Assembly: GCF_900090275.1 (NCBI RefSeq)
Contig: NZ_LT607755.1
Location: 3,100,001-3,164,000 of the forward strand
Reading direction: 5' to 3'
From: Micromonospora zamorensis
GTDB lineage: Bacteria > Actinomycetota > Actinomycetes > Mycobacteriales > Micromonosporaceae
Length of the DNA: 64,000 nucleotides
Notes under the pieces: model-generated
What the model saw: only the letters and a program-made list of their open reading frames with translations
What the model was told of the DNA's origin: nothing
The model's database searches: none
Shown here: piece after piece, positions 33,383 through 34,804 of the stretch
Layout: every line of letters starts with the position of its first letter
How positions within the stretch are numbered: position 1 is the stretch's first letter
Made by a program: the position numbers and the translations under genes

Positions 33383-33878
33383 ACGGCTGCTGCCCGCCGC
33401 CTACCAGCGGGCCTGTGTGCCCGGCAGCGTGCTCTGGACGCTGCTGGACGTGATGGAGGCGCTGCACGCCCCGGACGAGGCGATCCTCGCCGAGGTGGAC
33501 GCCCTGTTCGACCCGTACCGGGCGCCGGACGGACTGGTCGTGCGTCTGACGCGGTGGGTGGCGATGGACCACGTGGTGGCCTCGCCCCGGCCGGACACCC
33601 CCCTGCCGCTGCCCGTGGGTCGGCTGCGTGACCTGGTGGCCAACGCCGCTCTGCTGGCCCGGTGGCGCGGCACCCCGTACGGGATGCGCAGAGCCCTCGA
33701 ACTGGCCACCGGGTTGCCGGGCTTCGCGATCGACGAGCCCGACGAACAGCCCTTCCACGTCGTGGTGCGGGTGCCGGCGGCCGCAGCCGGCCAGCTCACC
33801 GTGATCACCCGCATCGTCGAGGCGGAGAAGCCCGCCTCGACCACCGTCGAGATCGTTCTCGAAGAGGAGTCGTCATGA
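33363..33878 (+). CDS. Phage tail protein I (gpI)-like wedge protein
   Basis: This 171-aa protein has RRSAIERLLPAAYQRACVPG at the start and LARWRGTPYGMRRALELATG in the middle, the hallmark of P2 gpI-like wedge proteins (TPYG...ALELATG). It completes the wedge with gp25 and J. It begins 20 nt inside the J gene. The larger Afp12 of other systems carries extra C-terminal domains that are absent here. Confidence 0.85.
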   Translation: MRRSAIERLLPAAYQRACVPGSVLWTLLDVMEALHAPDEAILAEVDALFDPYRAPDGLVVRLTRWVAMDHVVASPRPDTPLPLPVGRLRDLVANAALLARWRGTPYGMRRALELATGLPGFAIDEPDEQPFHVVVRVPAAAAGQLTVITRIVEAEKPASTTVEIVLEEESS

Positions 33879-34804
33879 CCACCGAGTGGGCGGTCGTCGC
33901 CGCCGCCGAGCAGTTCACCCTCGACCCGCGCAACAGCGGCGAGCTGACATTCACCGTCTCCAACCCGGGCACCGCACCGGACACAGTGGTGTTCGACGTG
34001 GCCCCCGGCGACGGCTCCCAGCGGGCGTGGTTCACCGTCGCCGAGCCGCAGCGGGTGGTCCCCGGGCAGGGTTCGGTGTCGTTCCTGGTCAAGCTCGCGG
34101 TGCCCGCCGGCACCCCACCCCGGCGTTACGACATGACCGGCTTCGCGTACTCGGCGAACACCGCGCCGGAGGAGAGTTCCCGCTCCAGCGGTCGGGTCAC
34201 CTACGAGGTGCGGGCGGTCGCGCCGCCACGGCGTACCCCGTGGTTGTGGATCGCCGCGGCGGTGGCGTTGGTGCTGGTGGTGGTGACAGTGGGGGTCGTC
34301 CTGCTGACCCGTGACGGCGAGCCGGCCCCCGGCGAGCCGCGGGTGGTCACCGTCGAGGCGGAGAGCCTGGTGGACGCCGCGGTGCTCAAGTCGCCGCAGA
34401 ACAGCAAGGCGGCAGTGGGTGCGCAGCCCAACTGCTGCGGGGTGACCTGGTCCGGGGACAAGCAACTGTTCTTCACGGGGCTGGCCATCGGCGATCAGGT
34501 CACCGTGACGGTGCAGATCCCGGCCGACGGCACCTGGCGGTTCGCGACGGTACGGACCACGGCCCCGGATTACGCGAACACCGTCTTCACCATCGACGGC
34601 AGCCAGGTCGGCGACACTTTCCTCGGCTTCACGCCGAAGGTGCAGAAGACGGAGTTCCTGGACGTCGGAACGATCCGGCTGGCCAGAGGGCCGCACCAGG
34701 TCACGCTGCTGGTGATTGGCAAGACACAGGGCACGAACTTCTACTTCGCCGGGGTCGACACCATCCGGTTCACCGAGGTCGTGGCGCAGGCCGTGACGCG
34801 ATGA
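33875..34804 (+). CDS. Single-pass membrane protein with Ig/NEW3-like and CBM6-like domains
   Basis: This 309-aa protein has three parts. Residues 1-115 form a beta-sandwich-like domain (FTLDPRNSGELTFTVSNPGT, later FLVKLAVPAGTPPRRYDMTG). Residues 122-145 form a membrane helix (WLWIAAAVALVLVVVTVGVV). Residues 156-309 form a domain opening with VVTVEAESL and ending FYFAGVDTIRFTEV, typical of carbohydrate-binding jelly rolls. There is no signal peptide, so the N-terminus should face the cytoplasm and the CBM-like domain the wall. It is coupled to the gpI gene by ATGA and may anchor or trigger the injection device at the membrane. Confidence 0.72.
   Translation: MTTEWAVVAAAEQFTLDPRNSGELTFTVSNPGTAPDTVVFDVAPGDGSQRAWFTVAEPQRVVPGQGSVSFLVKLAVPAGTPPRRYDMTGFAYSANTAPEESSRSSGRVTYEVRAVAPPRRTPWLWIAAAVALVLVVVTVGVVLLTRDGEPAPGEPRVVTVEAESLVDAAVLKSPQNSKAAVGAQPNCCGVTWSGDKQLFFTGLAIGDQVTVTVQIPADGTWRFATVRTTAPDYANTVFTIDGSQVGDTFLGFTPKVQKTEFLDVGTIRLARGPHQVTLLVIGKTQGTNFYFAGVDTIRFTEVVAQAVTR

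Follow-up and report, generated by a model that had tools for sequence, protein, structure and literature searches.

In Micromonospora zamorensis, a 64,000-nt stretch of DNA (assembly GCF_900090275.1, contig NZ_LT607755.1, forward-strand positions 3,100,001-3,164,000; hereafter the window) encodes a contractile injection system (CIS), and directly behind the genes for its baseplate proteins J and gpI lies a gene, here called T, for a bitopic membrane protein with a predicted immunoglobulin (Ig)/NEW3-like inner domain and a putative carbohydrate-binding module (CBM) as outer domain. T tracks one CIS lineage almost perfectly. We lean towards the reading that it is a dedicated membrane adaptor of this distinct actinobacterial lineage, and infer with similarly moderate confidence that it tethers the cytoplasmic CIS to the membrane and links firing to a signal from the envelope. 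The inner Ig domain would bind the assembled cytoplasmic particle at the baseplate, that is J, perhaps its BNR-like extension, or gpI; the outer module would bind a glycan or wall component, or let go of it under envelope stress. Such coupling would bring the particle to the membrane and permit firing, as is thought for the CisA protein in Streptomyces coelicolor, and two downstream genes, d1 and d2, probably encode partners of T in this membrane module. T bears on the question of how a CIS free in the cytoplasm reaches the membrane and receives its firing signal. Published work is cited here by identifier and from excerpts of its text.

The association was followed in 150 genomes of the Micromonosporaceae, which were searched for J and, with profiles, for the T inner domain, CisA and the double-Ig membrane proteins described below. 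Lineage A was defined by a match to the window's J at E 2e-105 or better (52-100% identical) and lineage B by a match at E 4e-39 to 2e-27 (pieces 34-52% identical), in this family at about 1e-39 to 1e-29. The lineage and E thresholds were chosen after the results had been seen, 16 of the 81 J-positive genomes have weaker J matches and are counted as 'neither', and the genomes are related, so that the tallies are not independent trials. Lineage A occurs in 28 genomes (30 J genes), lineage B in 40 and both in three. The T inner domain, with profile rows drawn from this family, was found in 27 of the 28 genomes with lineage A versus one of 122 others (24/25 A-only, 3/3 both, 0/37 B-only, 1/85 neither), and the copy in the sole 'neither' genome (G407) is short and lacks a transmembrane (TM) helix. 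The TM helix plus outer domain of CisA shows a different distribution (0/25 A-only, 3/3 both, 31/37 B-only, 0/85 neither; one profile row came from G095 of this sample) and is present in 34 of the 40 lineage-B genomes, whereas double-Ig proteins (E < 1e-15) occur in all 40 of them (0/25 A-only, 3/3 both, 37/37 B-only, 0/85 neither). In the three dual-lineage genomes T stands beside the A-type J, and the CisA and double-Ig genes are near the B-type J. The one A-only genome without the T inner domain (G338) has J but no sheath, gp25 or gpI gene in the surrounding 18 kb.

Among 296 genomes of the class tallied for J, double-Ig proteins and CisA (four of 46 J-positive genomes were set aside for weaker J matches), double-Ig proteins were found in 38 of 40 lineage-B genomes and nowhere else at E < 1e-15, and CisA in 24 of 40 and nowhere else at E < 1e-14; nine of the 38 and eight of the 24 had supplied profile rows and match by construction. 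Weaker matches, in 19 of 57 genomes for double-Ig proteins and 14 of 38 for CisA, were not counted. Among the CisA matches not counted are those of three genomes that do carry a lineage-B J (G174, G238, G280) and one in the genome of the window itself, which is partial and falls in a 1536-aa frame (E 5e-6). The T inner-domain profile, searched in 394 genomes of the class, matched seven, strongly in two Micromonospora and at E 3e-7 to 4e-6 in the five others.

Lineage A differs from the others in its baseplate as well. The C-terminal extension of J (residues 541-880 in the window), which has a weak BNR-like match, is present in 18 of 18 lineage-A loci versus none of 39 other loci tested; the F510_1955 match in the window lies at residues 651-809 of the longer open reading frame (ORF), far below cut-off. 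The extension is a candidate docking platform for T. Of the two downstream genes, d2 was found in 16 and d1 in 14 of the 18 lineage-A loci with J, and neither in the 39 loci of other lineages.

Measured between match coordinates and not exact gene ends, the median distance from T to the nearest lineage-A J is 2,994 bp (30 of 34 inner-domain genes within 5 kb) and that from CisA to the nearest lineage-B J is 2,999 bp (28 of 33; the doubtful G337 match, E 6e-7 and on another contig, was excluded from the 34). By these near-equal medians T takes the place of CisA, immediately after the baseplate wedge genes and not at the sheath-side end of the cluster. Double-Ig genes are found at a median of 14,170 bp from J (six of 49 lie within 5 kb and 44 within 30 kb), in L150 and L153 beyond the sheath. 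Conversely, the T inner domain lies within 5 kb of 28 of the 30 lineage-A J genes; of the two exceptions, one is the isolated J of G338, and in G409 T lies on another contig than J, 264 bases from that contig's first base, probably owing to a contig break. In four loci (L103, L110, L113, L117) the CisA slot holds short tail-anchored proteins without an outer domain, those of L110 and L113 being zinc-ribbon-like by eye.

A scan of named genomes yielded 59 T loci, 57 of them with gpI beside T; of the other two, L039 belongs to a contig that begins at T, and L058 (Dactylosporangium; identical with L149) has T without a CIS gene nearby. All 57 are from Micromonosporaceae except L059, from Microlunatus (Propionibacteriaceae), which carries two T genes with PASTA domains outside. 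In 50 of the 57 loci, as in the window, the stop of gpI overlaps the start of T by four bases; in the remaining seven the gpI frame continues further or the spacing is 10, 17, 1,076 or 1,333 bases. The 1,076-base spacing belongs to L053, which has two T genes in tandem. Between gpI and T of L043 (1,333 bases) a transposase-like gene was seen by eye at 1623-2735. L136 holds a second T that stops just past the TM helix, and the T of L055, apparently frame-shifted near 4639 in a draft contig, is out of frame and was excluded from identity and charge counts. Mean identity to the window's T in the 58 readable loci is 91.3% for the inner and 66.6% for the outer domain, the inner domain being the more conserved in every one. 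The orphan T genes L135 and L149 are distant from CIS genes, and the same genomes hold a T-type CIS elsewhere; the L135 protein has different outer repeats, with Cys.

Orphan copies and a CBM-like outer domain are what would be expected if T were a sugar-binding or adhesion protein of the cell surface, or a sensor of envelope stress, whose gene simply happens to lie in a CIS operon. We regard this as very unlikely, as presence and loss of T track the CIS even within the window's genus (11 of 11 genomes with an A-type J, none of five without), and as the overlap with gpI and the uniformly better conservation of the inner domain speak against it. The coupling to the baseplate genes claimed in an earlier note on this DNA is borne out by the gpI overlap, by the proximity to J and by the near-confinement to lineage A.

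The layout put forward in the same note, an inner Ig/NEW3-like domain, a TM helix and an outer CBM6-like domain, was likewise recovered from the ORF and the structure model. Hydropathy and structure prediction agree on a single TM helix, preceded by one Ig domain and not by two in tandem, and residues 11-90 are modelled as a folded Ig with a mean predicted local distance difference test score (pLDDT) of 92-97 per block. NEW3 (PF10633) is matched weakly by 11 of 16 T relatives but not by the window's copy. From hydropathy and the positive-inside rule the N-terminus is predicted to be inside and the C-terminus outside, as had been claimed: lysine and arginine are more numerous before the TM helix than after it in 55 of 58 loci and equal in three, a distribution that does not favour the reversed topology. 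NCBIfam anti-sigma and CU044_5270 matches of T lie mostly over the TM helix, far below cut-off, and were not used.

The outer domain adopts a CBM6/CBM35 fold in the structure model and by its structural relatives, and is on this basis a putative carbohydrate-binding module of CBM6/CBM35-like type. A Pfam hidden Markov model search of T itself gave no CBM family match at E <= 1; its relatives L134 and L147 match CBM_6 and CBM_35, both below cut-off. No catalytic family was found above cut-off in Pfam or NCBIfam and none in PHROGs, so that an enzyme was rejected as an interpretation of the outer domain. Its two nearest solved relatives are a domain from a xanthan lyase and MiXBM (7ehg), the latter as named in the title of its structure entry. 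MiXBM and CBM6/CBM35 modules share at most 23% identity with the outer domain of T, which, unlike them, is membrane-tethered and not enzyme-borne. The cell wall, proposed earlier as the ligand, stands as one possibility, which the xanthan-lyase relative and the PASTA or FG-GAP domains in T relatives widen.

While the inner domain of T is retained, the outer module differs between lineages. Besides the window's T, 14 T-like proteins were compared with Pfam: PASTA (six), FG-GAP (two) and NPCBM (one) domains score over cut-off, two proteins have a CBM match below it, and three have nothing recognisable outside. A search with the inner domain alone gave at least eight FG-GAP proteins among the 120 of 157 matches listed, with inner parts 70-75% identical. 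The FG-GAP and NPCBM forms are known as proteins only, without CIS context, and the FG-GAP forms match TcdB_toxin_midN below its cut-off. The outer domains that pass a Pfam cut-off all have binding or repeat folds, and none is an enzyme. PASTA is the outer domain in a sister clade of T, and in a tree of J with 28 rows (13 of the 59 named loci, 14 of 20 further loci and the window) one change separates CBM from PASTA outer domains; L053, which has one T of each kind, was labelled CBM. The single change shows one clean swap of the outer domain within CIS loci, and many independent swaps are unsupported. This natural exchange indicates which half of T is likely turned to the machine and which to the signal. 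Envelope sensors such as the PASTA kinases are built comparably, with an inner functional domain, one TM helix and a wall-binding outer domain; unlike in PASTA kinases, no kinase or other catalytic domain was found in T.

The idea that T is the counterpart of the Streptomyces membrane protein CisA (SCO4242) with a different domain set holds in part. CisA is needed in S. coelicolor, where particles remain extended in cells lacking it; its N-terminus is inside, and its partner, the baseplate protein Cis11, is known by prediction (PMC12237407). T and CisA share the slot right after the baseplate genes, a single TM helix, the N-in topology (predicted for T) and an outer sandwich domain of about 150 aa of carbohydrate-binding type. 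The inner part of CisA consists of a zinc ribbon (Zn_Ribbon_1 matched five of six CisA-type proteins scanned) and long disorder, whereas that of T is a folded Ig. Of the CisA model (mean pLDDT 57.5) only the C-terminal domain (about 315-460) was used; it is a discoidin/CBM32-like sandwich, so that both proteins have a CBM-like outer module, albeit of different folds. Profile comparison detects no similarity between the outer domains (0.3-0.6%), that of T being CBM6/35-like and not of the NADase-type/F5-8C kind, and the T inner domain scores 0.1% against the CisA TM and outer domain. Homology of T to CisA was not detected, though position and plan agree, and the inner domain of T is nearest to published effectors instead. 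As an adaptor, T would be a compact two-domain alternative to CisA in another lineage, with a small, folded inner domain suited to binding and structural work. Cis13 of the Anabaena thylakoid CIS is another membrane-spanning protein that anchors an intracellular CIS, the role that we propose for T, and its locus also has a lineage-specific extension on the adjacent baseplate protein; unlike T, it is trimeric, tail-fibre-like and part of the particle (PMC8894136).

Other actinobacterial CIS loci (L096, L098, L103, L113, L116, L117, L122, L126, L150, L153) encode double-Ig single-TM proteins, without signal peptide and with the TM helix about 220 residues in. Their outer parts vary and sometimes reach ~2000 aa, with ricin-type repeats in L150 and L153 (by eye) and long repeat proteins in other loci. 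They agree with what has been published on Sco4256-4258 of S. coelicolor, which were described as CIS effectors or a putative toxin, and, like the CisA relatives, were identified by architecture and published description (CisA also by NCBI names), not by comparison with S. coelicolor sequences. Sco4256-4258 have similar N-termini, one TM segment and a ricin-like C-terminus (PMC10066040); the first domain resembles pilus chaperones, and type IId CIS in further actinomycetes, in Cyanobacteria and in Chloroflexi have homologues (PMC10020575). BLAST surveys of Streptomyces found such proteins in 47 of 94 (PMC10066040) and in 90% of 105 (PMC10020575). T resembles this type in the lack of a signal peptide, the N-terminal Ig/NEW3-like domain, the single TM helix, the variable and often sugar-binding C-terminal domain and, in these samples, the confinement to genomes with a CIS. 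It differs in having one Ig domain instead of two and in its place: double-Ig genes lie at a median of 14 kb from J, past the sheath in the loci that were read, and are absent from genomes with only a T-type CIS.

In hhalign comparisons the T inner domain matched the first Ig of the double-Ig proteins at 97.4% (E 1e-11) and the second at 74.8% (E 3e-5); a control set of generic NEW3 domains, taken from 21 further proteins of the order, reached 94.1% (E 1e-7). An orphan T in G354 is also matched by the double-Ig profile (E 3e-6). Ranked by score, individual double-Ig and generic NEW3 sequences interleave below the top four. The control weakens this likeness as proof of common origin. As judged from sequence profiles, the kinship is probably at superfamily level, leaning to the CIS double-Ig set, to which layout and CIS association add.

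Since the inner domain of T is closest to the Ig of published effectors, it has to be considered whether T is itself a CIS effector of the Sco4256-4258 type, in which the Ig would serve for loading or docking and the TM helix and lectin-like domain would be the payload acting on a membrane or envelope after firing. This is the main rival to a role as adaptor, and we judge it unlikely. Beyond the profile match and the common Ig-TM-sugar-binding layout, it draws on the finding that Sco4256-4258 each lower the viability of E. coli on expression, and that in a mutant lacking all three the tubes are mostly empty and nisin-induced death is absent (PMC10066040). Moreover, eCIS_core (PF13699) has no match in the source genome (a control search matched one of 14 genomes, none over cut-off), so that no such cargo is known there, and the TcdB_toxin_midN matches of the FG-GAP forms, though below cut-off, point in the same direction. 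On the other hand, T sits in the CisA/fibre slot, beside nearly all J genes of its lineage, and not in the Sco4256 slot, and the recognised outer domains of its relatives include no enzymes. O-mannosylation occurs outside the membrane. The listing of SCO4256 in the membrane O-glycoproteome of S. coelicolor suits a resident bitopic protein better than a cytoplasmic cargo; the same list holds five proteins without TM and secretion signals, and three are called very likely intracellular (PMC6593405, Table 1). Sco4256 and Sco4242 were present in all three particle purifications (PMC10020575), which fits either an anchor or an effector. In excerpt, the SCO4256-4258 literature draws no link between the CIS-effector and the membrane O-glycoprotein listings.

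T might also do both, as an Ig-TM-X membrane receptor covering the jobs that Streptomyces splits between CisA and Sco4256-4258. The lack of CisA and double-Ig proteins in A-only genomes and their prevalence with lineage B are in line with this, but what the double-Ig proteins do is not settled either, one of the two jobs could fall to d1 and d2, and four of the 25 A-only genomes (G000, G358, G393, G402) show weak partial double-Ig matches (E 7e-8 to 5e-7, in frames of ~900-1040 aa); we consider such a double function quite unlikely.

An adaptor role for T would link two groups of Streptomyces proteins that have been treated apart, the 'fibre/adaptor' and the 'effectors'. It is conceivable, and we put it forward tentatively, that the intracellular CIS of actinobacteria rely on a common receptor class, built from one or two Ig/NEW3 domains in the cytoplasm, a TM helix and an interchangeable module outside, and that T is its single-Ig member, relocated to the CisA slot; with the same reserve, ricin, CBM, PASTA, FG-GAP, NPCBM and long repeat domains could be counted as its outer modules. 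If so, Sco4256-4258 would stay in the membrane as receptors or triggers, without which the machine is disarmed, and the choice of the envelope signal that fires the CIS would lie with the outer module. Published Micromonospora CIS work concerns, as far as the excerpts go, a different effector class. In the same excerpts, subscription papers and supplements apart, the literature on Micromonospora CIS, extracellular CIS, SCO4242 or SCO4256-4258 does not describe T.

Upstream of T in the window are same-strand genes for a sheath, tube, CIS_tube protein, VgrG-like spike, small conserved protein, gp25, J and gpI. Scans of family libraries including PHROGs and NCBIfam gave no match for d1 and d2.

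Features of T and of the surrounding CIS gene cluster in the window.
Feature	Position	Strand	Evidence
Sheath (ORF; true start later)	23834..25492	+	Pfam
Inner tube (gp19)	25494..25976	+	Pfam
Gly-rich low-complexity ORF, poorly conserved, between tube and CIS_tube genes	25951-27504	+	
CIS_tube adaptor	27504..28385	+	
VgrG-like spike, Phage_GPD and OB domain (true start later in ORF)	27368..29974	+	
Small conserved protein at PAAR position, without Pfam match	29974..30312	+	
gp25 baseplate wedge (ORF; true start probably 30309)	30048..30743	+	
J baseplate protein, 880 aa, C-terminal BNR-like extension of ~340 aa	30740..33382	+	Baseplate_J, TIGR02243
gpI / Tail_P2_I baseplate wedge	33363..33878	+	
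T, bitopic membrane protein, 309 aa	33875..34804	+	ORF, relatives at 59 named loci, predicted structure
T inner Ig/NEW3-like domain, residues 1-114, predicted cytoplasmic, best conserved part	33875..34216	+	Structure model, profiles, conservation
T transmembrane helix, residues 123-145, Arg/Lys just before	34241..34309	+	Structure model, hydropathy
T outer CBM6/35-like jelly roll, residues 153-303	34331..34783	+	Structure model, structural relatives
d1, small protein with N-terminal TM helix, conserved, downstream of T	34801..35262	+	
d2, multi-pass membrane protein, conserved, downstream of T	35294..36079	+	

A second contractile-tail-like cluster lies on the minus strand of the window at 54310-62580. 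Beside four neighbours without a family match, its frames 57808-59244 and 59237-59740 match PHROGs baseplate families (E 4e-31 and 4e-6).
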